This document shows, piece after piece, positions 4,205 through 22,714 of a DNA stretch of 25,923 nt. This DNA comes from a virus. The notes beneath the pieces are model-generated. The model saw nothing but the letters and a program-made list of their open reading frames with translations, had not been told where the DNA came from and made no database searches. The DNA lies in the IMG/VR virus record IMGVR_UViG_3300035670_001131, positions 1 through 25,923 of that record, one strand, 5' to 3'. Made by a program: the position numbers and the translations under genes. Numbering within the stretch: the first letter of the stretch is position 1; every line of letters starts with the position of its first letter.

Positions 4205-4635
4205 TGAGCCGCCGCGCGCTGACAGACGAGGAGAAGAAGGCCCGCGGGACGTTCGAGGAGCGCGACAGCGAGGTCAACCGGACCAAGCGGCACCTCGCCA
4301 CGGTCCATGCCTTCCCGACGTTCAGGGAAATCCCTGAGCCGACGGTCCCGCTGGGCGAGGCCGGGCGCCGCGCCTACGACAAGTGGGCCCGGATCCTGTT
4401 CGACGCCGGCCACCTGACCGAAATCTCGCAGGGATTCATCCAGATCGTCGGCCAGTACGAGGATGCCTCGGCCTACTACCATGAGCGCGGGAAGCCGCTG
4501 CCGACGCAGTGGGTCCAGATCCACAAGGCGGCGCTAGGGGAGCTGAAATACCTCAATGCCGACAAATCCCTCGCCCCGAAGCAGGAAAAGTCGAATCCCT
4601 TCGCTCGCAATGGCTTCGCGAGACGCCTTCGCTGA
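4204..4635 (+). CDS. Terminase small subunit, P27 family
   Basis: 143 residues. A charged N-terminus (TDEEKKARGTFEERDSE) leads to the conserved-looking WARILFDAGHLTEI, which resembles the P27-type terminase small subunit core. An Arg-rich tail follows (NGFARRLR). The family binds the packaging site and recruits the large subunit. Position between HNH and the large terminase is exactly what is expected. It starts at the ATG overlapping the HNH stop and overlaps the large subunit by 26 bases, so stoichiometry may be set by coupled translation. Confidence 0.85.
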   Translation: MSRRALTDEEKKARGTFEERDSEVNRTKRHLATVHAFPTFREIPEPTVPLGEAGRRAYDKWARILFDAGHLTEISQGFIQIVGQYEDASAYYHERGKPLPTQWVQIHKAALGELKYLNADKSLAPKQEKSNPFARNGFARRLR

Positions 4636-6448
4636 CCTTCCGAAGATCAAGATCGAGGTCCCTGACGGGGATGGGTTCGTCGACCTGGTCGAGTTCCCCG
4701 ATTATCCGGGAATGGCCCGGAAATACGCCGAAATGGCCTCATCCGGGGCCATTCCGGCCTGCATCTACGTCCGGCAGGCGGCGGCGCGCTATCTCAAGAT
4801 GCTCGAGGAGGCGGCCGGCGGCGAGGCCAACTACACCTTCTCGCCGGCCTGGGTCTGCGACGTCTGCGACTTTATCGAGAAGCTGCCGGTCCCGGAGGGC
4901 GACGAGGGGGTCGACGACGACCACGTCGGCGAGACGTTCGTGCTCCAGCCGGCCCAGATGTGGTGGCTGGCCGCGATCTTCGGGTTCCGGCGCGACGATC
5001 CGGAGGCGCCGCGCGAGCGGGGCACCCGGCTCGTCCGCGAGGCCTACCTCGAGGTCCCCCGCGGCAACGGCAAGAGCGCGCTCCTGGCCGCCGTCGGGCT
5101 CTACCTGTTCACCTGCGAGGGCGTGAAGGGCTCGAAGGGCTTCATCGGCGCGCCGAAGGAGGAGCAGGCCCGCTACGTGTTCGATCCGATGACGGCGATG
5201 CTGGTCAACTCGCCGGATCTGCGGTCGCACTTCAACCTCGAGAACACGAAGCTGCGGATCAAGAAGGCGAACGACCCCGGCGCGTACATCCGCATGATCT
5301 CGTCGATCGCGGACCGCGAGGACGGCGCCAACCCGCACTTCATCATCATGGAGGAGCTGCACGCCCAGGACGAGGCGCTGTTCAACGTCATGGACAGCTC
5401 GATGGGCAAGCGGCCGAACAACCTGTTCCTGTCGATCACGACCGCGGGCAACCGGTCCAGCGGCGTGTGCTGGAACACGCGGCGCCGCGCGATGAACGTG
5501 CTGGCCGGGCTGGAGGAGGAGGAGTCCTTCTTCTGCGCGATCTACACGCTGGACGCGGACGAGGTGAAGGACGAGAAGGTCCGCTACGACCCGTCGATCT
5601 GGCCGAAGGCGAACCCCATGTGGGGGATCACGCTGTTCCCGTCGGCGATGCTGGACCGCTACCGCAAGGCGCGGATGACCTCGCCGGCGGCGATGCTCGA
5701 GTTCGACCGGACCCGGCTGAACCTCTGGCAGAACGCGGCCGGGGGGCTCGTCCACCCGGACAACTGGGCGGCCTGCAAGCGGCCGGGGATCAAGATCGCC
5801 GACTTCCGCAAGAAGCCGGCCTACATCGGCGGCGACCTGGCCTCCAAGCGCGACATCACGGCGATCGGCGCGCTGATCCAGGACGGCGACCGGGTGGTGG
5901 CCTTCAACCGCTACTTCATCCCGCAGGGCTCTCCGTCGTTCCAGAAGGAGCACATCGGGCCGCTGTACGAGGGATGGGTTCGCAACGGGTGGCTGACGGT
6001 CACGCCGACGCCCGTGACCGACTACGGCTTCGTCGAGCAGGCGATCCGTGACTGGTGCGACGTGCTGGATGTCGAGGCGATCGTCTTCGACAACTTCCAG
6101 TCCAACCAGGTGCTCACCAGCCTGTTCAACGACGGCTATCCAGCGATGGAGATGCCGACGGGTCTCAAGACGATCTCCGACCCGGCGCAGGACTTCTTCG
6201 CGCTGATCGAGGCGCACCTCCTGGTCCATGAGGGCAACCCCGTGACCGAGTGGATGGCCATGAACACGGTCGGCTACCTGGACAAGCGCGGCAACCTTCT
6301 ACCGCAGAAGGAGTCGCCGGAGTCCGACAACAAGATCGACGGCATCACCTCCCTGGTGAACGCCAACGTCGTGCGGGTCGACGCCCAGCTCGACGTGCCG
6401 AGGAAGCGGAAGTCGGTCTACGAGGGCCGCGGGCTCCTGGAGCTGTGA
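4610..6448 (+). CDS. terL: Terminase large subunit (packaging ATPase and nuclease)
   Basis: 612 residues from the ATG at 4610. The ATPase half has a Walker A loop in PRGNGKSA (residues about 150-156) and a Walker B in FIIMEEL (about 244-250). The nuclease half has candidate metal-binding acids in GGDLASKRD (D409), VFDNFQS (D494) and NKIDGITS (D577), the RNase H-like arrangement. It drives DNA into the prohead and cuts the concatemer. I prefer 4610 because an in-frame ATG at 4556 would overlap the small subunit by 80 bases. The 4556 start does have AGGGGAG upstream, so it is not excluded. The family match is to Terminase_1 / HK97-like enzymes. Confidence 0.95.
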   Translation: MASRDAFADLPKIKIEVPDGDGFVDLVEFPDYPGMARKYAEMASSGAIPACIYVRQAAARYLKMLEEAAGGEANYTFSPAWVCDVCDFIEKLPVPEGDEGVDDDHVGETFVLQPAQMWWLAAIFGFRRDDPEAPRERGTRLVREAYLEVPRGNGKSALLAAVGLYLFTCEGVKGSKGFIGAPKEEQARYVFDPMTAMLVNSPDLRSHFNLENTKLRIKKANDPGAYIRMISSIADREDGANPHFIIMEELHAQDEALFNVMDSSMGKRPNNLFLSITTAGNRSSGVCWNTRRRAMNVLAGLEEEESFFCAIYTLDADEVKDEKVRYDPSIWPKANPMWGITLFPSAMLDRYRKARMTSPAAMLEFDRTRLNLWQNAAGGLVHPDNWAACKRPGIKIADFRKKPAYIGGDLASKRDITAIGALIQDGDRVVAFNRYFIPQGSPSFQKEHIGPLYEGWVRNGWLTVTPTPVTDYGFVEQAIRDWCDVLDVEAIVFDNFQSNQVLTSLFNDGYPAMEMPTGLKTISDPAQDFFALIEAHLLVHEGNPVTEWMAMNTVGYLDKRGNLLPQKESPESDNKIDGITSLVNANVVRVDAQLDVPRKRKSVYEGRGLLEL

Positions 6449-6449
6449 C

Positions 6450-6632
6450 ATGACCATCACGATCACCTACGGCTGGTGGCTCATCCCGTGCGTCATCACC
6501 GTGGTCTCGATCGCGCTCGCCGTCCGGCACGTTCTGGTGGCGGAAGGTTACGATATAGCGCCCATCGTCTCTGCGTTTGCCGCGGTCACAGCGTCCCTCG
6601 CGTCGTGGCTGATTTGGAGTCTCCTGACATGA
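6450..6632 (+). CDS. Small membrane protein between terminase and portal
   Basis: 60 residues with two hydrophobic segments (about 8-29 and 39-59) joined by RHVLVAEGYDIAP. It begins one base after the terminase stop and overlaps the portal start by four bases. Tiny membrane proteins wedged between packaging and portal genes are seen in several siphoviruses, but their job is not known to me. It could be a holin-like protein or a superinfection factor; nothing in the sequence decides. Confidence 0.6.
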   Translation: MTITITYGWWLIPCVITVVSIALAVRHVLVAEGYDIAPIVSAFAAVTASLASWLIWSLLT

Positions 6633-8014
6633 GCGACGACGTGACGAAGGCGCTCTCGGTCCTCCGGGAGACGGTCGGCGAGGCCAAGGCGCTCCAGCAG
6701 GCGCAGACCAACCTCATCAACCTGGTCCGGATGGCCGGGTTCTCGAGCTGGTACGGCGAGCCGGTGAAGCTGACCCTCACCGACGTGCTCCAGGTGAGCG
6801 CGGTCACGATCTGCCTCGACATCCTGGCCCAGGACATCGCCAAGACCACCCTCCGGCTCTACCGGCGCCTGCCGAACGGCGGCAAGCAGGCGGTGATGCC
6901 CGGCGAGCATCCGGCGGCGCTGCTTCTGGCCACCGAGCCGAACCCGCGGCACCACTGGTACGAGCTCATCGAAATGATGATGCTCCACCTCGGCATCCTC
7001 CAGAACGCCTTCTGGGCGAAGCGGATCCTATCGAACGGCACCGTGACCGAGATCGTGCCGATCCTGCCCGGCCGCGTGCGCGTGCTGGCCGACGACGAGG
7101 CCGGCGTGGTCGCCTACGAGGTCAAGCGGGAGACGCCTTACGAGCGCATCCTGCTCGCCGGTCTCCCGGACGTGCTCCTCGAGGGAGAGATCATCCACTT
7201 CCGCGGCCGCATGTTCGACGGCCTGTTCGGGTACTCGAACCTCGAGGCCGGCAACCGGACCTTCAACCTCGCCAAGGCGCTCCAGACCTTCCAGACCAAC
7301 CTGTTCGAGAACGACGCCACGCTCCGCGGCGTGTTCCAGATGGGTCCGGAGAACTCGCTCTCGGACGAGGCCTTCCAGCGGATGCGCGCGCAGCTCACCG
7401 AGCGGTTCTCGGCGCTGCGGAAGGAGGCCAAGCCCCTGATCCTCGAGGAAGGGATGACCTTCCAGGGCATCTCCATGAAGTCGGACGAGGCGGAGGCCCA
7501 GAAGGCCTGGGACAACGCCATCGTCAACGTGGCGCGCCAGTTCCGCATCCCGCCGCACAAGATCTTCCACCTGATCAACGTCAAGTACGAGAACATGGAG
7601 ACGCTGGAGAAGTCCTACGTCTCCGACACGCTGGTCCCGTACTGCCGGCGGATCGAGCTGACGCTGGCGCGGCACCTCCTGGACCGCAAGGAGCGCGCGG
7701 AGTTCTTCCTCGAGTTCGACCGCGAGGAGATGGTCCTCTCCGACCCGAAGGCGCAGGCCGAGATGCTCGGCGTGCTGCTGCCCAACGGCGTCCTGACCAT
7801 CGACGAAGCCCGGCAAATGCGCGGCCGGAACCCGCTGCCGAACGGCGCCGGGAACGTCCGCCTCATCGGGTCCACCTACACGCTGGTCGACGACCAGAAC
7901 GAGGTCGTCATCCCCGCGGGCGGCCAGCAACAGGATCCCGCGGAGGATCCGGCGGACGACGTCACCACCCCCGACGACAGCGGGTCCAAGGGCCTACGGG
8001 TCATTTCGGGTTGA
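6629..8014 (+). CDS. Portal protein (HK97 gp3-like)
   Basis: 461 residues, normal for the family. Typical features include an N-terminal LTLTDVLQVSAVTICLDILA segment, KTTLRLYRR, HHWYELIEMMM, the IIHFRG and GYSNLEA stretch, GVFQMG, and a VARQFRIPPHKIF motif. The Glu-rich C-terminal helix region ends in a Pro/Asp-rich tail (residues about 435-461). It forms the dodecameric ring at the capsid vertex through which DNA passes and the tail attaches. The start at 6629 overlaps the upstream gene by four bases. A longer frame from 6476 is discarded because it lies inside the upstream gene. Confidence 0.95.
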   Translation: MSDDVTKALSVLRETVGEAKALQQAQTNLINLVRMAGFSSWYGEPVKLTLTDVLQVSAVTICLDILAQDIAKTTLRLYRRLPNGGKQAVMPGEHPAALLLATEPNPRHHWYELIEMMMLHLGILQNAFWAKRILSNGTVTEIVPILPGRVRVLADDEAGVVAYEVKRETPYERILLAGLPDVLLEGEIIHFRGRMFDGLFGYSNLEAGNRTFNLAKALQTFQTNLFENDATLRGVFQMGPENSLSDEAFQRMRAQLTERFSALRKEAKPLILEEGMTFQGISMKSDEAEAQKAWDNAIVNVARQFRIPPHKIFHLINVKYENMETLEKSYVSDTLVPYCRRIELTLARHLLDRKERAEFFLEFDREEMVLSDPKAQAEMLGVLLPNGVLTIDEARQMRGRNPLPNGAGNVRLIGSTYTLVDDQNEVVIPAGGQQQDPAEDPADDVTTPDDSGSKGLRVISG

Positions 8015-8027
8015 AAGGTCACCACCC

Positions 8028-9188
8028 ATGCCGAAGCCGAACATCTCCCTCGACGAGCTCCTGTCGCGCCGGCAGGGCCAGATCCGCTCCACCGATCGCG
8101 GCGACGCGCTGGTGAAGGCCTTCAAGGCCCCGCCGTCGTGGAACCCGGACAACCGGACGGCCAAGTTCGTCATGTCGACCGAGCAGCCGGACCGCCACGG
8201 CGACGTGGTGGTGCAGGCGGGCCTCGACACCGCCGAGTTCGAGAAGAACCCGGTCGCGCTGGCCTTCCACAATTCCTGGGACTGGCCGATCGGGAAGTGG
8301 TCGGACATCACCAAGGTCTCGGGCAAGCCGCGGCGGACCGAGGGCGTCCTGAACTTCGCCCCGGAGGGCGTCTCGGAGAACGCCGACAAGGCGGTGAAGA
8401 TGGTCGACGCCGGCCTGATGCGCTGCGTGTCGATCGGCTTCATCCCGAAGGAGTACGAGGCCCTCTACGACCAGCAGGATCGCTGGGTGGGGATCAAGTT
8501 CCTCGCCGCCGAGATGATCGAGTGCTCCCTGGTGCCGATCCCGGCCAACCCGGGAGCCGTTGCCAAGGCGGCCGGCAACGACAGCCGGGTCCACATGCTC
8601 ATGCTCGAGGAGATCCTCGACGAGTGGGCGATGACCCCCGAGGGCCTGGTCGTTCCGCGCGAGGTCTACGAGCATGAATATCAGGTCGTGAAGGCGCACC
8701 GCGGCGCGGTCATCGGCGGGTCGATCATGGAGGCGCTCCACAACTTCGGAGAGGAGCGCAAGAAGACGCTGGGGGACACTCCCCAGCCCGCCCCCGTCGC
8801 GCCCGTCCTGGACAAGGGAATCGCCCAGGAACAGGCATCCGAGGGCAAGCCGGAGGACGAACTGTCCCGCGGCATCCTCGAGTCCCTCAAGAAGGCCCTC
8901 CGCGAGGTGTTCGCGGGCTTCGGGTCGGCCGAGCACGCCATGATGATCGCAGAGCTCAAGGCCGCCGATGAGGTAATGCAGAAAATCGCCCAGGAGACGG
9001 CTTCCGAGGGCGTAGAGGCGTCGGAAACCACTGAAAAGACGGCGGAAAACGCCGAAATACGGGAAAATCCCGAAATTGACGAGCCGGCAGTCGAAAAGGC
9101 GCCCGAGCCGTCCGCGACTGATCTCGCCATCGCCCGCGCGAAGGCGAAAGCAACCCTCGCACGCCTGCGCTCGCAGGAAGCGGCCTGA
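8028..9188 (+). CDS. Prohead maturation protease with long acidic C-terminal extension
   Basis: 386 residues. Residues about 30-185 match the HK97-type prohead protease (peptidase U35/S78), with likely catalytic His81 in AFHNSWDWPIG and Ser135 in LMRCVSIGF, then the EMIECSLVPIPANPGA signature. It cleaves capsid precursors inside the prohead. Typical family members are about 200 residues. The further 190 residues here are rich in Glu, Ala and Lys (for example KTAENAEIREN and EKAPEPS) and look coiled or disordered. They may act as internal scaffold or a self-cleaved delivery tail. A strong terminator-like hairpin follows within 40 bases. Confidence 0.93.
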   Translation: MPKPNISLDELLSRRQGQIRSTDRGDALVKAFKAPPSWNPDNRTAKFVMSTEQPDRHGDVVVQAGLDTAEFEKNPVALAFHNSWDWPIGKWSDITKVSGKPRRTEGVLNFAPEGVSENADKAVKMVDAGLMRCVSIGFIPKEYEALYDQQDRWVGIKFLAAEMIECSLVPIPANPGAVAKAAGNDSRVHMLMLEEILDEWAMTPEGLVVPREVYEHEYQVVKAHRGAVIGGSIMEALHNFGEERKKTLGDTPQPAPVAPVLDKGIAQEQASEGKPEDELSRGILESLKKALREVFAGFGSAEHAMMIAELKAADEVMQKIAQETASEGVEASETTEKTAENAEIRENPEIDEPAVEKAPEPSATDLAIARAKAKATLARLRSQEAA

Positions 9189-9218
9189 ATCCCTTCGGGC
9201 GCGGCCCGCGGGATAGCC

Positions 9219-9242
9219 AAGGCGCCTCCGGGCGCCTTTTTT
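9219..9242 (+). terminator. Rho-independent terminator or attenuator before capsid gene
   Basis: AAGGCGCC pairs with GGCGCCTT across a TCCG tetraloop, an eight-pair GC-rich stem ending directly in six T (9237-9242). This has all the features of an intrinsic terminator. It sits only three bases upstream of the capsid gene ribosome site (GGAG at 9246-9249), so capsid mRNA must read through it, be processed there, or be antiterminated. Confidence 0.85.
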
Positions 9243-9256
9243 CATGGAGAAATCGA

Positions 9257-10543
9257 ATGACTCTCGAGCAGCTCCGCGCCCGGCTCAAGGAGCTCGGCGC
9301 CGAACTCACCGCCATCGTCGACAAGGGCGTGTCGTCCCCCGAGGACATGCAGAAGATCGACGCCCTGTCCGCCGAGGTCGACGACGTCGAGGCGAAGATC
9401 AAGTCCCTGGAGAACGCGGCACGGGTCAAGGCCCGCCTTGCCGGCAGCGTCTCCCCGGGCGCGATGACCGTCCCGGCCGAGGCCAAGTCGGAGCCGGAGA
9501 AGTTCCGCTCCTTCGGCGAGCAGCTCCAGGCGATCGCCCATGCCGGCATCAACCGCGGTGCCCCGCATGACCGCCGCCTGGTCTGGTCGAAGGCCGCCGG
9601 TGCCAACGAGGCTGTCCCGTCCGAGGGCGGCTTCCTGGTCCAGACCGACTTCTCGACCGAGCTCCTGTCCCTGTCGCACGACATGGGCCAGGTCGTGTCG
9701 CGCGTCCGCAAGATCCCGATCTCGAGCAACTCGAACGGCATCTCGTTCCCGACGATCGACGAGACCAGCCGCGCCAACGGCTCGCGCTGGGGCGGCATCC
9801 AGACCTACTGGGTGAACGAGGCCGACACCGTCACCGCGTCCAAGCCGAAGCTCGCCCAGATCGAGCTCAAGCTGAACAAGATGATGGGCATCGGTTACGC
9901 GACCGATGAGCTCCTGGCCGACGGTCCGGCCCTCGAGTCCATCATGAAGCAGGGCTTCGCCGAGGAGATCACCTTCAAGGCGGAGAACGCGGTCCTGAAC
10001 GGGACCGGCGCAGGCCAGCCGCTCGGCATCTTCAACTCCGGTGCTCTCGTCACCGAGTCCGCGGAGTCTGGGCAGGCGGCAGACACCATCACCGCGACGA
10101 ACATCCTCAACATGTTCTCGCGTCTGCCGACCCGCTCGGCGACGAACGCGGTGTGGCTGGTCACCCAGGAGTGCCTGCCGCAGCTCTGGACCATGACGAT
10201 GCCGACCAGCAACGTCATCATGTTCCAGCCGCCGGGCCTGAACGGCAACATCGAGGCGAATGCCCCCTACGGCACCCTCCTCGGCCGTCCGGTCCTGCCG
10301 GTCGAGTACCTGGGCCGCCTTGGCGACCTGGGCGACATCCTGCTCGCCGATCTGAGCCAGTACCTCATGATCGACAAGGGTGGGGTGGATGCCCAGGAGT
10401 CGATGCACGTCCGCTTCCTCTACGAGGAGATGACGTTCCGCATCACCTACCGGGTTGACGGTCAGCCGGCCTGGCGGACCGCCATGACCCCGGCGTCTGG
10501 TGGCCCGACCCAGTCGCCGTTCGTCACCCTCGCGGCGCGCTGA
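9257..10543 (+). CDS. Major capsid protein, HK97 fold
   Basis: 428 residues. Residues 1-60 are a charged coiled coil (EQLRARLKELGAEL and EDMQKIDALSAEVDDVEAKI), the usual delta or scaffold domain removed by the prohead protease. The body has typical HK97 capsid segments: SEGGFLVQTDFSTELL, ISFPTIDETSR, KLNKMMGIGYATDELLAD, FAEEITFKAENAVLNGTGAGQPLGI and RFLYEEMTFRITYRVDGQ. It builds the icosahedral shell. GGAG seven bases upstream supports the ATG at 9257. I cannot place the cleavage site with certainty. The gene lies between a terminator-like hairpin and a second hairpin. Confidence 0.96.
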   Translation: MTLEQLRARLKELGAELTAIVDKGVSSPEDMQKIDALSAEVDDVEAKIKSLENAARVKARLAGSVSPGAMTVPAEAKSEPEKFRSFGEQLQAIAHAGINRGAPHDRRLVWSKAAGANEAVPSEGGFLVQTDFSTELLSLSHDMGQVVSRVRKIPISSNSNGISFPTIDETSRANGSRWGGIQTYWVNEADTVTASKPKLAQIELKLNKMMGIGYATDELLADGPALESIMKQGFAEEITFKAENAVLNGTGAGQPLGIFNSGALVTESAESGQAADTITATNILNMFSRLPTRSATNAVWLVTQECLPQLWTMTMPTSNVIMFQPPGLNGNIEANAPYGTLLGRPVLPVEYLGRLGDLGDILLADLSQYLMIDKGGVDAQESMHVRFLYEEMTFRITYRVDGQPAWRTAMTPASGGPTQSPFVTLAAR

Positions 10544-11139: not shown

Positions 11140-11439
11140 ATGCTCGTCCGCCAGCTCATCGGTGGTCTCGCCGGCCAGATCGTAGACATGCCCTATCATG
11201 TCGCCCAGTCGTGCATCGCCAACGGCACCGCGGCGCTTCCGGATGCGGAAGTGCGCGTGCGCGGGCTCGATGTGGCTGGGCCCCCCTCCCCGCGGGTTGA
11301 CGTCCCGGAGGACTGGAAGTCCCTCCACCACCTCGCCCGCATGTCCCTCGCCCGCAAGGTCAACCCGGCGCTTCCGGCGAGGATCTCGACGAAGCAGGCC
11401 GACGAGGCCATCGAAGCCTACCTCGCCGGCAATGCGTGA
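11140..11439 (+). CDS. Small protein in head module, unknown function
   Basis: 99 residues starting MLVRQLIGGLAG. The first half is a short segment with MPYHVAQSCIANGTA, then a Pro-rich linker, and a helical C-terminus (SLHHLARMSLARKV through DEAIEAYLAG). I do not recognise the family. It lies between the decoration gene and the second MptE/Maf-like gene, overlapping the latter by eight bases. Small head or connector accessory proteins occur at this point in many siphovirus operons; no specific role can be read. Confidence 0.7.
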   Translation: MLVRQLIGGLAGQIVDMPYHVAQSCIANGTAALPDAEVRVRGLDVAGPPSPRVDVPEDWKSLHHLARMSLARKVNPALPARISTKQADEAIEAYLAGNA

Positions 11440-12055
11440 TCTCTACAAGGTCCCAAGGATCTTTGCGGGCAAGACCGTCGTCATCATCGGCGGCGGCCCG
11501 TCGCTGGACCTGAAACAGGTCCGCAAGATCGCGATCGCCCACGCCGAGGGCAAGATCGGCGCCATCGCCGTCAACGACGCGGGCTTCGTGTGCTGGTTCG
11601 CCGACTGGCTGCACGCCTGCGACTTCAAGTTCTGGAACTGGAACAAGCAGTCGGCCACGCGGTTCCCAGGCATCAGGACGACGCTCGACGAGCACGTTCC
11701 GGCCGGATGGGCGGCGCTGATCAAGAACACCGGCCGCGAGGGCTTCGACGAGAACCCGTCGCACTGCCGCACCGGCAGCAATTCGGCCTACCAGGCGGCG
11801 CATTGCGCCATCCACGCCGGGGCCAGGAAGATCGTGCTGGTCGGCGTCGACCAGAAGCTCGGGCCCAAGGGCGAGTCCCACTGGTACGGCGAGCCGCCGG
11901 ACCGGATCGTCCCGCACTACGAGACCGCGATGATCCCGTACTGGGACGGCCTCAAGGACGCGCTCAAGGCCTTCGGCGTCGAGATGGTCAACGCGACGCC
12001 GGGGTCCGCGCTCAAGTCCTTCCCGCTGGCCGGGCTCGATGAGGTGCTGAAATGA
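11432..12055 (+). CDS. Second MptE/Maf-like (DUF115-type) protein
   Basis: 207 residues, a clear relative of the 1153-1767 product. It shares VVIIGGGPS (Gly loop at residues 20-24), AVNDAGF, TGSNSAYQAA, and KIVLVGVDQ followed by SHWYG, in the same order and spacing. The closest known families are MptE-like diphosphokinases and the Maf flagellin-glycosylation domain. It sits inside the head-to-tail morphogenesis genes, overlapping its neighbours on both sides, far from the glycosyltransferase set. That suggests it modifies a virion component while it is made. A catalytic role is inferred from fold motifs only. Confidence 0.78.
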   Translation: MRDLYKVPRIFAGKTVVIIGGGPSLDLKQVRKIAIAHAEGKIGAIAVNDAGFVCWFADWLHACDFKFWNWNKQSATRFPGIRTTLDEHVPAGWAALIKNTGREGFDENPSHCRTGSNSAYQAAHCAIHAGARKIVLVGVDQKLGPKGESHWYGEPPDRIVPHYETAMIPYWDGLKDALKAFGVEMVNATPGSALKSFPLAGLDEVLK

Positions 12056-15095: not shown

Positions 15096-18000
15096 ATGGC
15101 GATCGAGTTCGTCGGCGGCGCTACGGCTACACGGACTGGCTCGGCCACTAACGGTTTTACGCTCGCGCTGGATAGCGGCCTGTCGGGCGGAATTTCGTCC
15201 TCTGTACAAGAGGGCGATCTTGTAATTGCGGCGTATGGCGTTGGCACTACGAACAGAACGCCGTCGCTTACCATCACGCCAGAGTTCGCTAGTGCAACGA
15301 GCGTTGCTGGAAGCATCGTCGTCGGCGATGGGTCGAGTTACGACAGTCGCCTCAATGCAGTCTACTTCTTTGTTGGCGCTTCACCGAATACGGATACGCT
15401 TGTTGATTTCGCCGCCACAGGAAACAATGCTGATGGCGGCGGTGGAGCTGTCTATGTATTTCGTGGCGTTGATCCGACGACGCCTCTGGATGGCGTTACC
15501 CCTGTAACGGACAGTGGCACAGGCGCAGTAGGCCCGAACCCACCGTCAATCCAGCCCGCCACCTCTGGCGCGGTTGGTGTCTTCATCGGCGCCTCCGGTT
15601 CTCCCGTTGTCCAGACCTACGGGCATTCAACGTTAACCGATGTCCAACAGGCGATCGGGGCGGACTCCCAAGACGGCGGCGTCGTAATCGCGCATGAGTT
15701 CTGGTCCGGTTCCGGCGCGATGGACCCGGCAGCGTTTACTGGTGGTGGTACGAATGCCGCTGGCGGCTGGTCCGCGCTGTCTTTTGTCTTGCGCCCGTCA
15801 TCAGCTTCGGTTGAATCTGGTGACGGATCTGCTGATGGTGATGGTGCCGCGACCGGCGTCGGTGCATCCATTGCGGCGGCGGTCGGTGCAGCGTCTGGAA
15901 CCGGCGCTGCATCTGGCGTCATGGTTTCGCCGAAGATCGACCTTCTCTCGTCCGACTTCACGGCCATTGACACGGACATATTCGAGGTCACCGAGGCGGT
16001 CTCGGGCTATGTCGACATGGCCTCGGGCACGCTGTCCATCGAGGCGCGCGACACCTATCCGACGCTTGCCACCAAGGGGACATGGGATCTCGACGAAAGC
16101 TCGGTCTTCGTCGCCGTAAATAGCGTCGGCAACGAGGTCGACCCGGCGAACGGCCGCGAGGTCATCATACAGGTTGTTGATCCGGACAGCGTAACCGGTG
16201 GCGATGGCGTCGGTGTCATCATCCTGTCGGCGTACACAAAGGCCGCGTTCACGACGGATTCCGGGTCGACGACCTATCACGGGTTCACGACGTGGAGCCC
16301 GGTGTCAGAGAAATTTTGGCGCATCCGGGATACGTCGGGCACGACCTATATCGAATACTCGGCGGACGGGTCGTCCTGGTCGACGCTCCGCTCGCAGTCG
16401 TCCGCCTCGTGGATCGGCGACGTCGAGTTCCAGATCTCCGCCGGCAACTACAACGGCGACGAAGATCCGATCGAGATTGCTGAGTTCAGCCAGCTCAACT
16501 CGACGGCGAGTGTCCAGTCTGGTGATGGCTCGGCTTCCGGGTCCGGTGCCGCATCAGGTGTTGGTGCTTCAATTTTCTCGGCCGCTGGGTCCGCCTCGGG
16601 TACGAGTGATGCGGCCGGTGTTGGTGCCTCTATCGCGGCCGGCGATGGAGCGGCCTCGGGCACGGGCGATGCCACTGGCGCCGGCGCCTCCATAGCGGAA
16701 GCCGCGGGGTCGGCGTCAGGAACGGGCGCAGCTACCGGTGGTGGCTCCACAGGCGGTGCTGGCTCCGGCTCCGATGTCGAGTCCCTGTCCGGCGACGCCC
16801 AGTCCGGGGTCGACGACCTCCTTCTGTCCGGCGATGCCCAGTCTGGCACTGACAATGTCAAGCTCTCAGGCGACGCCCAGTCCGGCGGCGCGGTCGAGTC
16901 CGGCGCTGGTTCGGCGGCCGGTTCCGGCGCGGCCAGCGCGGTAGGCGCGTCCACGGCGGCGAGCGTTGGGGCGGCGGCCGGCACTGGCGAGGCGACCGCG
17001 GTAGGGGCCGCGACGTCCGCTGCGGATGGCTCTGCGTCTGGAACTGGCACTGCGTCCGGTGTCGGCGCGGCGACCGCGGCTTCCGATGGTTCGGCTTCCG
17101 GCACGGGCGCTGCAACTGGCGTTGGCGCTTCGGTCGCGGGTTCGGCCGGCGCGGCGGCTGGATCTGGCGAGGCGACGGCCGTTGGCGCTTCGGTCGCGGC
17201 CGGTGAAGGTTCGGCCTCCGGTACTGGAGCCGCGACGGGCGTTGGTGCCTCGACCGCGGCCGCGACGGGTTCTGCTTCTGGCACGGGCGACGCATCCGGT
17301 GTCGCCGCCGACTTCGACGAGGGCGTTGGCCTCGCCGAGGGAACCGGCGCGGCGTCTGGCGTCGGCGCTTCCACTGCGGCATCCGCGGGGTCCGCGGCGG
17401 GGAATGGCGCGGCGGCCGGCGTTGGCGCATCCACGGCCGCGGGCGCTGGCAGCGCGGCTGGGACCGGAGACGCAACGGCGGTCGGCGCCTCTACGGCGGT
17501 GTCCAGCGGTTCCGCCTCGGGCACGGGTGACGCCACCGCTGTCGGACGGTCGACCGCCGCGGCCGCTGGTAGCGCGGCCGGAACCGGCGACGCGACCGGT
17601 ATCCCGGACCTGATCTATGAGACCGATGGCTCGGCCAGCGGCTCGGGTGCCGCGACTGGTGTCGGTGCGAGCACTGCGGCCGCGGCCGGTTCCGCGGCGG
17701 GGACGGGAGACGCCACCGCGGCGAGCTCCACGGTCCTGTCTGGAGATGGATCAGCATCCGGAACCAGTGCGGCTTCCGGCGTTGGCGCCTCGACGGCCGC
17801 CGCGGCCGGATCGGCGTCCGGTACGGGCGAGGCCTCCGGTGTCGGGGCGTCGACCAGCGCCGCGGCGGGTTCCGCGACTGGCGTTGGCGCCGCGACCGGC
17901 GCATCCGAAGCATCCGTTCCTGGTGCGGGCAGCGCGACCGGGACCGGTGCCGCTTCCGGCGTTGGCGCGTCAACGGCCTCCGGCGCTGGGTCTGCCGCCG

Positions 18001-19325
18001 GGACGGGCGATGCGACCGGCGTTGGAATCTCGACGGCGAGCGCGGCTGGGTCCGCGTCCGGTGTAGGGGCGGCCGCGGCGGATGGTTCGGCGGTCATCCC
18101 GGCAACGGGTTCGGCGGATGGAACGGGCGCCGCTTCCGGCGTCGGCACCTCGACGGGCGCGGCCGATGGCTCCGCGTCCGGAACGGGAGATGGTACTGGC
18201 GTCGGCGCCTCCACGGCGAGCGCGACGGGTTCGGCAGATGGCACAGGCGCGGCGACAGGCGTAGGCGCCTCGACCGCGGCCGCGGCGGGTTCCGCCTCCG
18301 GGTCTGGCGATGCCATCGCCATCAGCGATTCCGGGACCGCTACGGGCTCCGCAGGCGGCTCCGGCGCGGCGAGCGGTGTTGGTGCCTCCACGGCCGCCGC
18401 GGCCGCCACGGCTGATGGAATCGGCCAGGCGGACGGTGTCGGAGCATCGACCTCCGCTGGGGCCGGTTCGGCGGCAGGGTCCGGAGATGCGAACGGCGTC
18501 GGCGCTTCTACGGCGGCCGCTGCCGGGTCCGCGACTGGCTCCGGAGATGCGAACGGCGTCGGCGCGTCCACCGTGGCAGGAGACGGTGCCGCGGCCGGGA
18601 CTGGCGCCGCCTCGGGCGTCGGCGCTTCCACGGCGGTTGCGGACGGTTCCGCATCCGGCTCCGGCACGGCAACGGGCGCCGGCCAGTACATCGTCCCCGC
18701 GGCCGGTTCGGCTTCCGGGACCGGCTCCGCAACCGCCTCGAGCGACAGCGCGACCGGAACTGGCTCCGCGTCCGGTTCGGGTGACGCGACCGGCGTTGGA
18801 ACGTCGATCCTGGCTGGGGCGGGATCCGCGGCCGGCACGGGCGATGCCACGGCGGGCGGCGCGTCCATCGCTGCGGCGGCAGGCGCCTCGAGCGGGTCCG
18901 GAGATGCGGTCGGCGTCGGCTCATCGGTCGTCTCCGCGGCCGGCAGCGCGTCCGGCCTCGGCGATGCGACGGCTACCAGCGACTCCGGGTCGGCGTCTGG
19001 TTCTGCGTCCGGCTCCGGCGATGCCACGGGCGTCGGCACGGCCATTCTGGCGGGCGACGGCGCCGCCGCCGGCACGGGCGACGCGACCGGCGTCGTCATC
19101 GCCTTCGCCGCGGCGGCCGGATCGGCTTCCGGATCCGGGGAGACCACCGGCGCGGGTGGCGCAATCGCGAGCGGCGCCGGGTCCGCCGACGGGTCCGGGA
19201 ACGTCATCTGCTTCGCGACTGCCGTGGCGGCGATGCAGGGCGCCGCGGCCGGCACCGGGTCGGCGTTTGGAATTTCGAACTCCGCGCGGCGGGCCCGGCG
19301 CCGCGTGTTCAACGCGATAGGGTGA
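15096..19325 (+). CDS. Giant Gly/Ala/Ser/Thr repeat protein with two jelly-roll-like domains
   Basis: 1409 residues. Residues 1-240 form a beta-rich domain (EGDLVIAAYGVG, AVYVFRGVDP, WSALSFVLRP) like ones often found in phage surface proteins. Residues 241-275 are two repeat units. Residues 276-474 form a second beta domain resembling a concanavalin-type lectin (FWRIRDTSGTTYIEYSADG). From residue 475 to 1392 there are about 44 copies of a 20-residue unit close to GSASGTGAATGVGASTAAAA. The C-terminus is basic (ARRARRRVFNAIG). There is no signal peptide. It probably forms a long virion fibre or shaft, possibly a beta-solenoid. GGAG nine bases upstream supports the ATG. The 5' part is poorer in G+C than the rest. 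Confidence 0.88.
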   Translation: MAIEFVGGATATRTGSATNGFTLALDSGLSGGISSSVQEGDLVIAAYGVGTTNRTPSLTITPEFASATSVAGSIVVGDGSSYDSRLNAVYFFVGASPNTDTLVDFAATGNNADGGGGAVYVFRGVDPTTPLDGVTPVTDSGTGAVGPNPPSIQPATSGAVGVFIGASGSPVVQTYGHSTLTDVQQAIGADSQDGGVVIAHEFWSGSGAMDPAAFTGGGTNAAGGWSALSFVLRPSSASVESGDGSADGDGAATGVGASIAAAVGAASGTGAASGVMVSPKIDLLSSDFTAIDTDIFEVTEAVSGYVDMASGTLSIEARDTYPTLATKGTWDLDESSVFVAVNSVGNEVDPANGREVIIQVVDPDSVTGGDGVGVIILSAYTKAAFTTDSGSTTYHGFTTWSPVSEKFWRIRDTSGTTYIEYSADGSSWSTLRSQSSASWIGDVEFQISAGNYNGDEDPIEIAEFSQLNSTASVQSGDGSASGSGAASGVGASIFSAAGSASGTSDAAGVGASIAAGDGAASGTGDATGAGASIAEAAGSASGTGAATGGGSTGGAGSGSDVESLSGDAQSGVDDLLLSGDAQSGTDNVKLSGDAQSGGAVESGAGSAAGSGAASAVGASTAASVGAAAGTGEATAVGAATSAADGSASGTGTASGVGAATAASDGSASGTGAATGVGASVAGSAGAAAGSGEATAVGASVAAGEGSASGTGAATGVGASTAAATGSASGTGDASGVAADFDEGVGLAEGTGAASGVGASTAASAGSAAGNGAAAGVGASTAAGAGSAAGTGDATAVGASTAVSSGSASGTGDATAVGRSTAAAAGSAAGTGDATGIPDLIYETDGSASGSGAATGVGASTAAAAGSAAGTGDATAASSTVLSGDGSASGTSAASGVGASTAAAAGSASGTGEASGVGASTSAAAGSATGVGAATGASEASVPGAGSATGTGAASGVGASTASGAGSAAGTGDATGVGISTASAAGSASGVGAAAADGSAVIPATGSADGTGAASGVGTSTGAADGSASGTGDGTGVGASTASATGSADGTGAATGVGASTAAAAGSASGSGDAIAISDSGTATGSAGGSGAASGVGASTAAAAATADGIGQADGVGASTSAGAGSAAGSGDANGVGASTAAAAGSATGSGDANGVGASTVAGDGAAAGTGAASGVGASTAVADGSASGSGTATGAGQYIVPAAGSASGTGSATASSDSATGTGSASGSGDATGVGTSILAGAGSAAGTGDATAGGASIAAAAGASSGSGDAVGVGSSVVSAAGSASGLGDATATSDSGSASGSASGSGDATGVGTAILAGDGAAAGTGDATGVVIAFAAAAGSASGSGETTGAGGAIASGAGSADGSGNVICFATAVAAMQGAAAGTGSAFGISNSARRARRRVFNAIG
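15816..15920 (+). repeat. First short block of the 20-residue repeat
   Basis: Thirty-five codons with two repeat units (one slightly long, one truncated) separate the two folded domains of the large protein. They have the same GDGSADG and GAASGTGAASGV pattern as the main array 600 bases downstream. Confidence 0.8.
16518..19271 (+). repeat. Main tandem array of about 44 20-residue (60-base) units
   Basis: I read 44 units, most exactly 20 codons long, with consensus GSASGTG-D/A-A-T/S-GVGASTAAAA. Gly falls at unit positions 1, 5, 7, 11 and 13. Codon choice varies between units (GGT, GGC, GGA), so the DNA is more diverged than the protein. One pair of adjacent units is identical over 26 bases (18480-18505 and 18540-18565). 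About every four to six units, the second half is replaced by unrelated residues without changing the unit length much. Confidence 0.93.
16785..16888 (+). repeat. Three copies of an LSGDAQSG motif
   Basis: Three LSGDAQSG motifs, spaced about 13 residues apart and separated by VDDLL and TDNVK, interrupt the 20-residue array after its fourth unit. They form a separate repeat family inside the protein, perhaps a hinge or binding segment. Confidence 0.8.
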
Positions 19326-19953: not shown

Positions 19954-20862
19954 ATGGGACCGTCCGCCAACGACCTGTTCAACTTGAACTTCCCGGAGTA
20001 CGCGGACGTCTGGATGCAGCTTGGGTTCCACCGCGGGATCAACCAATATAACAACGGCTATGAATTGATCGAGTGGAAGAAGCCTCCCCGCGCCAATCTC
20101 GTCTTCATGATGGGGATGGGTCATGGTGGACGCGGTGGGGATGGTCGCGGGAACGCCGCCGGGAACGTCAGGTCTGGCGGCGGCGGCGGCGCCTCGGGGT
20201 GTCTCTGCTCTCTCCTGATACCGGCGCAGTTTCTTCCCGATACGCTCTGGTGTCAGGTGCCCTGCAACCCACTGTCGACCTCCGACCTTTACGTCATGTT
20301 TCACCCGTCGACGATTGCCTACGCGCAGTACAAGGTCATGCACGTCACTTCTGGGAGCAATGGGACGACCGCCAGCGGGAGCGCCACTTCCTACGCGGGT
20401 GGGACCACGCCCACGCAGAGCGACCTCGGTGCCGGCGCGGCTGATGTCGGCCTGTTCGCGTATCAAGCGGGCAGCGCAGGCGCGACAGGTCGCGGTTCGG
20501 CCGCTGGTGATGACGCCGCCTCGTCTCCAACGAGTTCGCGTACAGCGGGCGCCGGCGGGGGCGGCGTGGACGCATCCAACGTCGAGTATGCGGGCGGCGG
20601 CCAGCCGGCCATGCGGAACGGCCTCATCGCAGCGGCGCCGGGCGGCGCGGTTGGCGGCGGGAACGGGGCCGGTGGTGTCGTTGTCCGCCAGCCGTTGTTC
20701 TTCCAAGGCGGGTGTGGCGGCGGCGGCAACGCTTCCGGCACGGGTGGGACCGGCGGTCATGGCGGAATCGGCGCAGGCGGCGGCGGTGGCGGCGGTGGGC
20801 TGACGACCGGCGGTGCCGGCGGGCTCGGTGGCCCCGGCCTTCTTCTCATTGTCTCGTGGTGA
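19954..20862 (+). CDS. Glycine-rich adhesin-like protein, copy 1
   Basis: 302 residues. The N-terminal 35 residues end in the motif IEWKKPPRANLVF, followed by Gly-rich segments (GGRGGDGRG, SGGGGGASG), a LPDTLWCQV motif near residue 92, and a long Gly-rich C-terminal half ending GGAGGLGGPGLLLIVSW. It shares this plan with the next two genes but is the most diverged. Tail-tip adhesins built of packed polyglycine-II helices (phage S16 gp38 type) have comparable Gly runs, with variable loops that contact the receptor. Receptor binding is inferred from that resemblance. Confidence 0.78.
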   Translation: MGPSANDLFNLNFPEYADVWMQLGFHRGINQYNNGYELIEWKKPPRANLVFMMGMGHGGRGGDGRGNAAGNVRSGGGGGASGCLCSLLIPAQFLPDTLWCQVPCNPLSTSDLYVMFHPSTIAYAQYKVMHVTSGSNGTTASGSATSYAGGTTPTQSDLGAGAADVGLFAYQAGSAGATGRGSAAGDDAASSPTSSRTAGAGGGGVDASNVEYAGGGQPAMRNGLIAAAPGGAVGGGNGAGGVVVRQPLFFQGGCGGGGNASGTGGTGGHGGIGAGGGGGGGGLTTGGAGGLGGPGLLLIVSW

Positions 20863-20865
20863 CGC

Positions 20866-21789
20866 ATGGAACAGATCGGCCCCCCGCACACGCGGAAGCT
20901 CGGCACGACGACGCAGTTCCTCGTCGGAGGGACGTGGACGCCGTGGCAGAAGCCGCGCAATTGCCTGTTCATCATGATCCTGACCATCGGCGCGGGCGGT
21001 GGTGGCGGTGGTGGTCTCAACACAGCCTCCGGTGCAGGAGCGCAGCACGGCGGTCTTGGAGGGGGATCGGCGGCGATCCGCAAGTCGTTCTTCTTCGCAC
21101 CGCACCTGCCTGACACGCTGTGGGTCTACGTCGGTCTCGGTGGGGCGGGCGGCTCTGCCGACGTCGCGGGTAGCAACGGTGAATCCTCTTGCGTCGGCGT
21201 CCTCCCGGAAAAGAACGTGAACCACCTGCTCTCGTCGGCGAACGGCGGCGTCGGCGGTGGTAATGGTACGAGCGGCGGCGGTGGTACGGGTGGCACTGCG
21301 GCGACGTTCTCCACCGAGTGCTATCTGGGCGGTCCGATGTTCGGGATCGAACCGATCGCCATTGCGTCGTTCTACAACGAGCACGCCTTCGTTGCGGGTC
21401 TGACCGCGACGACGCGCACGGCGAGCGCCTACAGCGCGCGGGCGGTGCTGCAAAGCGGGACGATCACACTCCCCGGCGGCAATGGCGGGTCTTGGAGCGG
21501 CACAACGCAGCGCGCCGGCGAGGGTTTCGCCGCATCGACCAACAGCGTGATCCCTGCGGTGGGCGGCGGCGCGACAGGCGGCGGACGCGGTGTGGACGGC
21601 TACATCGTCACCATGCAGCCTCCGATCTTCACGGGCGCGTCCGGCGGCGGCTGCAACTCTGGCGGCACGGGCGGGGCCGGCGGCAACGGCGCGCCGGGCT
21701 GCGGGGGTGGGGGCGGCGGTGCCGGGAACGGAACCGGCGGCGCTGGCGGTCGTGGTGGCGACGGCCTGATCGTGATCGCGGCGAGGTGA
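20866..21789 (+). CDS. Glycine-rich adhesin-like protein, copy 2
   Basis: 307 residues. It shares with its neighbours a W.KP motif (TPWQKPRNCLF), an immediate Gly run (GAGGGGGGG), HLPDTLWVYVGLGG near residue 85, and a Gly-rich C-terminus ending GGAGGRGGDGLIVIAAR. Between the Gly segments are non-repetitive inserts (for example FSTECYLGGPMFGIEP and FYNEHAFVAGL) that differ from the other copies and could be receptor-contact loops. It starts three bases after the previous stop. Function is inferred as in copy 1. Confidence 0.78.
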   Translation: MEQIGPPHTRKLGTTTQFLVGGTWTPWQKPRNCLFIMILTIGAGGGGGGGLNTASGAGAQHGGLGGGSAAIRKSFFFAPHLPDTLWVYVGLGGAGGSADVAGSNGESSCVGVLPEKNVNHLLSSANGGVGGGNGTSGGGGTGGTAATFSTECYLGGPMFGIEPIAIASFYNEHAFVAGLTATTRTASAYSARAVLQSGTITLPGGNGGSWSGTTQRAGEGFAASTNSVIPAVGGGATGGGRGVDGYIVTMQPPIFTGASGGGCNSGGTGGAGGNGAPGCGGGGGGAGNGTGGAGGRGGDGLIVIAAR

Positions 21790-21793
21790 GCGC

Positions 21794-22714
21794 ATGTTCG
21801 TAGACCCCTCATTCCTCGGTGGCGCATCCAAGGTCGAGGTCTTCAACGCCAGCACCAACCTCCACGTCTGGACGAAGCCGCCGTGGGCGACCTTCGTGAT
21901 GTTCTGGGTTCTCGGGGCCGGCGGCGGCGGTGGCGGTGGGTTCACTCGCGCGGCCGGCGTGCAGGGCGGCGGTGGCGGGGGTGGCGGCGCCGGGTCGACG
22001 GTGGTGTCCTTGTTCATCGCCGATCTCTTGCCGGACAACCTCTACCTCCGGGTCGGCTACGGCGGCGATGGCGGCGCGGCGAACAGTGCAGGGTCGGCCG
22101 GCCGGTTCTCCGGAGTGCTGACCCGCCCGACGACCACGGGTGCGACGGATATCGCGCTCTCGCTCCCCGGAGGCGGTGGTGGTGGCGGCGCAGGGACAGG
22201 GGCGGCCGGCGGGTCGACTGGTTCCGCTGGTGGCGGGACGATTGCCAGCAACTACACGATCGGCATCACCGCGATCCTCGCCTATCTTCAAGGCGCCGGA
22301 AGCGCGGTGGCCGGCGGCGCAAGCGGAACGCCGACGAACGCCAACAACACGTTCAGCGGCGGCGAGTCGCCATCGCGCGGCGGCATGGGCGGCGCAGGCA
22401 TCTCGACCACCAATGTCGAGGGTGTCGGCGGTGGGAGGACTGCCGCCTATTCACCGAGCGTCGCAATCCCCGGCGGCGCGGCCGGCGGTGGCAACGGCAC
22501 CGACGCCTACATCGCGACCGAGCTCAACGATGCCTGGAAGTACATGCGCTACCTGACGTGGGGCTCATCTGGCGGCGGCGCCAACGCCTCGGGGACGGGG
22601 GGCAAGGGCGGCGACGGCATCATGGGCGGCGGCGGCAGCGGTGGTGGCTCCGGCCTGACCGGCGGTGCTGGTGGCAAGGGCGGCGACGGCATGATCGTGA
22701 TCGTGAGCTGGTGA
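21794..22714 (+). CDS. Glycine-rich adhesin-like protein, copy 3
   Basis: 306 residues. It keeps the plan: HVWTKPPWATFVMF, then GAGGGGGGG, LLPDNLYLRVGYGG near residue 80, variable inserts (NYTIGITAILAYLQG and ELNDAWKYMRYLTWG) and the GGAGGKGGDGMIVIVSW end. It is closest to copy 2 in both conserved ends. It precedes the gp10-like gene by four bases, so the cassette is inserted seamlessly into the morphogenesis operon. Copies 1-3 probably arose by duplication and then diverged in the middle. Confidence 0.78.
   Translation: MFVDPSFLGGASKVEVFNASTNLHVWTKPPWATFVMFWVLGAGGGGGGGFTRAAGVQGGGGGGGGAGSTVVSLFIADLLPDNLYLRVGYGGDGGAANSAGSAGRFSGVLTRPTTTGATDIALSLPGGGGGGGAGTGAAGGSTGSAGGGTIASNYTIGITAILAYLQGAGSAVAGGASGTPTNANNTFSGGESPSRGGMGGAGISTTNVEGVGGGRTAAYSPSVAIPGGAAGGGNGTDAYIATELNDAWKYMRYLTWGSSGGGANASGTGGKGGDGIMGGGGSGGGSGLTGGAGGKGGDGMIVIVSW

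Follow-up and report, generated by a model that had tools for sequence, protein, structure and literature searches.

Terminator hairpin at the protease/capsid junction

The window, i.e., the whole stretch of DNA analysed here, is a 25.9-kb viral contig (25,923 nucleotides) with a head operon on the + strand. The operon contains genes for the terminase large subunit (4556-6448), the portal (6476-8014), an S78-like prohead protease (8028-9188; Pfam PF04586, E 7.7e-6; PHROG head maturation protease) and an HK97-type major capsid protein (9257-10543; Pfam PF05065, E 1.3e-46; PHROG 10), with connector genes located 3' of the capsid gene. The protease stop codon (9186-9188) and the capsid ATG at 9257 are separated by 68 nt, the capsid start being backed by alignment with relatives (MTLEQLRA). 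A GGAG ribosome-binding site on the same strand (9246-9249) lies 7 nt before this ATG. The protease-capsid stretch shows no DNA similarity to known phages, and the protease used as a query retrieved no relatives among viral contigs.

Other genes of the window are as follows. Two separate genes (1009-1764 and 11198-12055) both match PHROG 4603 (alpha-2,3-sialyltransferase), and one of them sits within the head module, between the capsid and connector genes. A 1409-aa ORF without a Pfam or PHROG match (15096-19325) lies between the head and tail genes, with a GC content of up to 76% in its 3' half. Three consecutive ORFs of about 305 aa (19954-22711) each match PHROG 863 (tail fiber assembly) and appear to be tandem paralogues.

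The gap contains an eight-pair hairpin on the + strand (9219-9238), found by direct reading, a terminator scan and folding, and its position is kept in relatives. The 5' arm AAGGCGCC (9219-9226) and the 3' arm GGCGCCTT (9231-9238) enclose a UCCG loop (TCCG at 9227-9230) and form six G-C and two A-T pairs, with a stem energy of -13.7 kcal/mol. By direct reading, a T run occupies 9237-9242, followed by CAT (9243-9245), GGAG and the capsid ATG. The earlier note had described the hairpin, six T and the spacing to GGAG, and all these details were confirmed, except that two of the six T, the first ones, are also paired in the stem. The element combines a GC-rich, short-loop, sense-strand stem with a U tract directly after it, as is expected of an intrinsic terminator, and its discriminant d is 9.5, i.e., above zero. 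The hairpin ranks first in the terminator scan of the window, and 9219-9242 turned out to be the sole strong intrinsic terminator on either strand, the other site being a weak six-pair one at 15762. Of 5000 shuffles of the 68-nt gap, 11 contained a terminator that was at least as good. Judged from its sequence and its conservation in relatives, a terminator of the right form is present at 9219-9242; that it terminates, and how strongly, we infer.

Directly after the protease stop there is another hairpin, H1 (9189-9214, + strand), composed of an AUCCC..GGGAU stem and an inner CGGGC..GCCCG stem. H1 and the terminator hairpin are predicted to fold independently (-15.0 and -13.7 kcal/mol, respectively), and the segment 9186-9242 folds as H1 plus terminator with a z of -2.19 relative to shuffles. 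An Rfam search of the window gave no match at the gathering score.

The absence of a promoter from the gap, claimed earlier, was borne out. The 14 nt from the T run to the ATG are too short for a promoter that would keep GGAG in the transcript, and no promoter-like site was predicted in the window, including the 400 nt that precede the capsid gene. Since no promoter fits between the T run and GGAG and none is seen upstream, capsid RNA must come through the terminator, much as the note had stated, and this holds for transcripts from any upstream promoter.

Terminators before the capsid genes of related phages

Relatives were gathered with the capsid as the query, and a tree of 139 capsids was built. 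The window groups with L001, L002, L008, L099 and L102 in a clade with a support of 0.995 and a capsid identity of 53-62%. In all six members a strong terminator is found 18-38 nt before the capsid ATG. Its stems and spacing vary, the loops being TCCG, TTCG, GCAG, GTT, ATGT and GCGA, and the T run is kept in 6/6. One of the stems contains a U-G pair, which would be a mismatch in the RNA of the opposite strand. A hairpin of the AUCCC/GGGAU type occurs at the place of H1 in L001, L002, L008 and L099, and L102 has another hairpin there.

Across the tree, a strict terminator lies within 130 nt before the capsid gene in 18 of 139 related loci; shuffled upstream sequences gave a mean of 0.55 terminators per set and a maximum of 2 in 40 sets. 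Other gene starts of the related loci carry a terminator in 37 of 875 cases (Fisher p 1.6e-4 for the comparison with capsid starts). When only gaps of 40-150 nt were considered and unrelated Alphaproteobacterial capsids were added, the proportions were 13/55 for capsid genes and 28/258 for others (p 0.013), so that the gap-matched enrichment is only modestly significant; the loci counted are kin, a simple script assigned the gene starts, and the p-values in both comparisons serve as guides. Strong terminators are distributed by strand as 108 in the sense orientation vs. 43 in the other. Before unrelated capsid genes in Alphaproteobacterial genomes, a terminator was found at 5 of 58 loci, with 23-29 nt from the end of the nearest stem to the ATG. 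The remaining 121 of the 139 capsid relatives carry no strict terminator at the capsid start, and hence such a terminator is generally dispensable. None was found at the corresponding junctions of Dagobah, Bradyrhizobium phage ppBdUSDA122-1 and Kronos, all of which have less than 35% capsid identity. No paper describing a terminator ahead of an HK97-type capsid gene was returned by a search of the open-access PMC full text.

The H2/GAAGTT motif shared by L002, L008 and L099 was considered as a wider element and rejected. The scan produced at least 118 copies of the pattern, and among the matches listed a terminator follows the motif only in L318 and L351, both of which carry the sequence of L099. 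Separately, six relatives (L043, L062, L066, L076, L079 and L141) possess strong terminator-like hairpins about 1.5-1.9 kb upstream of the capsid start; several of these consist of CCGCYCGAAAGGGCGG plus a T run, and they precede another gene, perhaps that of the portal.

A covarying RNA hairpin in the sister phages

Comparison of the relatives revealed an element, termed R1, shared by the gaps of L004 (2612-2648), L007 (2769-2805), L010 (2877-2913), L011 (2715-2751), L015 (1863-1899), L019 (2889-2925), L109 (3881-3917) and L163 (3852-3888). R1 is a 37-nt hairpin that closely follows the protease stop and precedes the capsid gene. Its predicted structure starts with an outer stem and a UA/GAY internal loop, continues with a 4-bp stem, a base bulged out on the 3' side and a 3-bp stem, and is closed by a YGUN tetraloop; almost every copy adopts this fold when folded alone. 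Compensatory change is seen at 10 of 14 pairs. Pairing is retained in 91.7% of cells vs. 71.6% in shuffles and at most 51% with slid partners, and the covariation is 0.651, a value reached in none of 500 shuffles, vs. 0.245.

A scan of all viral contigs with the R1 pattern gave ten contigs. Five of them are earlier records with R1 at that place, and five are new, all with the element upstream of a capsid relative. Among the new ones, L376 (5277-5313), L382 (9241-9277, - strand) and L383 (5010-5046) are distinct sequences, and L374 repeats the sequence of L004. R1 begins 12-24 nt after a long ORF in the protease position in L376, L378, L382 and L383. Of the seven pairs that the pattern leaves free, six are formed in L382, six in L376 and five in L383. 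The layout of L383 and L378 is nearly that of the window: RNA, hairpin, TTTTTTCGTGGAGAATTATT, ATG. An Rfam search of 12 relative loci gave no matches and sub-threshold scores only. On this comparative evidence, R1 is an undescribed covarying RNA hairpin.

R1 has a clear distribution on the tree. The window's clade has the terminator in 6/6 members and R1 in 0/6; the sister clade has R1 in 8/8, with a strict terminator besides it in 3/8, and R1 is also present in the more distant L376, L163 and L109. The window itself is not a member, its best score being 11.9 bits as compared to 41-50 bits for members. In Alphaproteobacterial genomes the exact pattern was absent (0 of 385), and matches to the R1 model there scored 21-26 bits, far below members.

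Two further observations concern individual R1 loci. In L007, two near-identical tandem terminators (2720-2862), 107 and 32 nt before the capsid ATG, have the R1 RNA between them. By eye, the ORF after R1 in L011, L383 and L004 may have an additional hydrophobic segment at its N-terminus.

Proposed read-through, possible regulation and alternative explanations

One would not expect a terminator ahead of the protein in greatest demand, except a leaky, regulated or bypassed one. Our main reading, to which we assign a probability of about 0.6, is that 9219-9242 is a working, leaky or regulated intrinsic terminator between the protease and capsid genes of one late head operon. Part of the polymerase arriving from the packaging genes would stop there, and the stopped transcripts would constitute a terL-portal-protease mRNA ending in a protected 3' hairpin. 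Polymerase that reads through would make the capsid-to-tail mRNA, in which the capsid ribosome site would start right after the T run. Partial read-through is suggested by the gene order; it may be fixed, the terminator being leaky like TJ of phiX174, or be raised late by a phage factor or RNA. The most likely role of the terminator is to throttle or gate the capsid gene.

The same hairpin could instead act as a 5' stem or processing site, with RNase cutting near it and little termination; the stem would stabilise the capsid or upstream mRNA or insulate the ribosome site. The hairpin lies 18-38 nt from the ATG in the clade, with the ribosome site open after it, and in most loci tested it is predicted to persist in read-through RNA (0.96 in the window). 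In addition, the order of stem, U-rich stretch and SD resembles the leader of T7 gene 10. However, short distances to the ATG are not confined to capsid genes, and the T run abuts the stem as in a terminator. Enrichment before capsid genes is seen for T-tailed hairpins (14/197 vs. 28/1078 elsewhere) and not for those lacking a T run (21/197 vs. 182/1078). Insulation of the ribosome site was rejected, as the predicted accessibility of this site in the window is 0.53 whether the hairpin is formed or blocked. Because T-less hairpins are not enriched and the ribosome site of the window is predicted to be equally open in both states, the data favour termination over a plain 5' stem, which we regard as unlikely. 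Of the three options offered in the earlier note (late antitermination, an attenuator or a stabilising 5' stem), an attenuator or regulated terminator fits best in view of the T-tailed enrichment, late antitermination is a possibility, and a plain stem leaves the conserved T run unexplained. Even less credible is a chance or relic hairpin without a role, such as a terminator left by a lost inserted gene. The terminator is indeed absent from most distant relatives, and the tandem terminators of L007 are what a past insertion could leave, but it is kept in 6/6 clade members through full sequence turnover, and shuffles almost never yield such a terminator. We therefore consider a relic very improbable.

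More weight, if still that of a tentative alternative, is given to regulated read-through, in which a late phage protein or a gap RNA makes polymerase ignore the terminator, so that capsid synthesis is switched on and not merely tuned. A folded RNA is present directly after the protease stop in 8/8 sister phages (joint clade support 0.999). It precedes a strict terminator in L007, L382 and L383 and weaker hairpins in others, and it occurs as one strong copy per contig, solely at the protease/capsid junction. With one structured RNA copy in the corresponding gap of the sister phages, local regulation at the junction is plausible. On the other hand, the single copy argues against a nut-like general signal, the window lacks the sister RNA, and Q-type antiterminators were not found in the relatives' contigs (PF06530 in 0/10, PF03589 in 0/7), which may be fragments, these families being narrow. 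A further observation is that a 12-nt segment near the end of the protease gene of the window (9096-9107, AAAAGGCGCCCG) is a perfect complement of the terminator 3' arm plus T run (CGGGCGCCTTTT). A match as long arose in 6 of 500 shuffles, and visual inspection of L001 and L002 did not reveal the complement; as an antiterminator candidate, it is possibly due to chance. In its strongest form, the junction would be an RNA-controlled switch. The folded RNA that follows the protease stop (in the sister clade R1, in the window's clade another hairpin) would govern terminator read-through and thus gate capsid synthesis by an undescribed phage RNA; taken as a whole, this proposal is speculative and probably does not hold. 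R1 and the hairpin of the window's clade possibly share a role, e.g., in the control of read-through or of the 3' end of the upstream mRNA.

Several known systems resemble the throttling or gating terminator proposed here. In lambdoid phages, late antitermination relies on the Q protein, and the put RNA of HK022 is a cis-acting folded RNA. These phages likewise have terminators in or before late operons that polymerase must pass; in contrast, the Q family was not found in the contigs of the window's relatives, and the sister-clade RNA, unlike put, is single-copy and adjoins the capsid gene rather than a promoter. The leader of T7 gene 10 presents a 5' stem, a U-rich stretch and an SD before the capsid ATG, an order also seen in the window. 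T7 has its own promoter at this place, whereas in the window the T run is joined directly to a GC stem, which is the arrangement of an intrinsic terminator.

The nearest known case for the window's terminator is TJ of phiX174, between genes J and F: a short-gap hairpin between structural genes with no promoter between them. Its hairpin ends 16 nt before the ATG of coat gene F, in a 36-nt gap, as compared to 18 nt from the stem end to the capsid ATG in the window. Read-through is known for TJ, the efficiency of which was measured as 40-60%, with a fit to RNA-seq data giving a value near zero (PMC11527146). Read-through in phiX174 is described as producing stepwise transcript levels, which may set the ratios of structural proteins (PMC9135205). 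On the other hand, phiX174 is an unrelated virus (Microviridae), its T tail is weaker than that of the window, and it uses host RNA polymerase without late antitermination; the efficiency is a measured one for TJ and a presumed one for the window. The terminator alone is near a known kind, and it is a variant through its conserved place before an HK97-type capsid gene, beside a further folded RNA.

From a single operon, tailed phages must supply packaging proteins and capsid in widely differing quantities. The persistence of a terminator at one junction, while its sequence has turned over completely, is indicative of control at the level of transcription at exactly this step, and the RNA found at the same place in the sister phages is a concrete candidate for the regulator.
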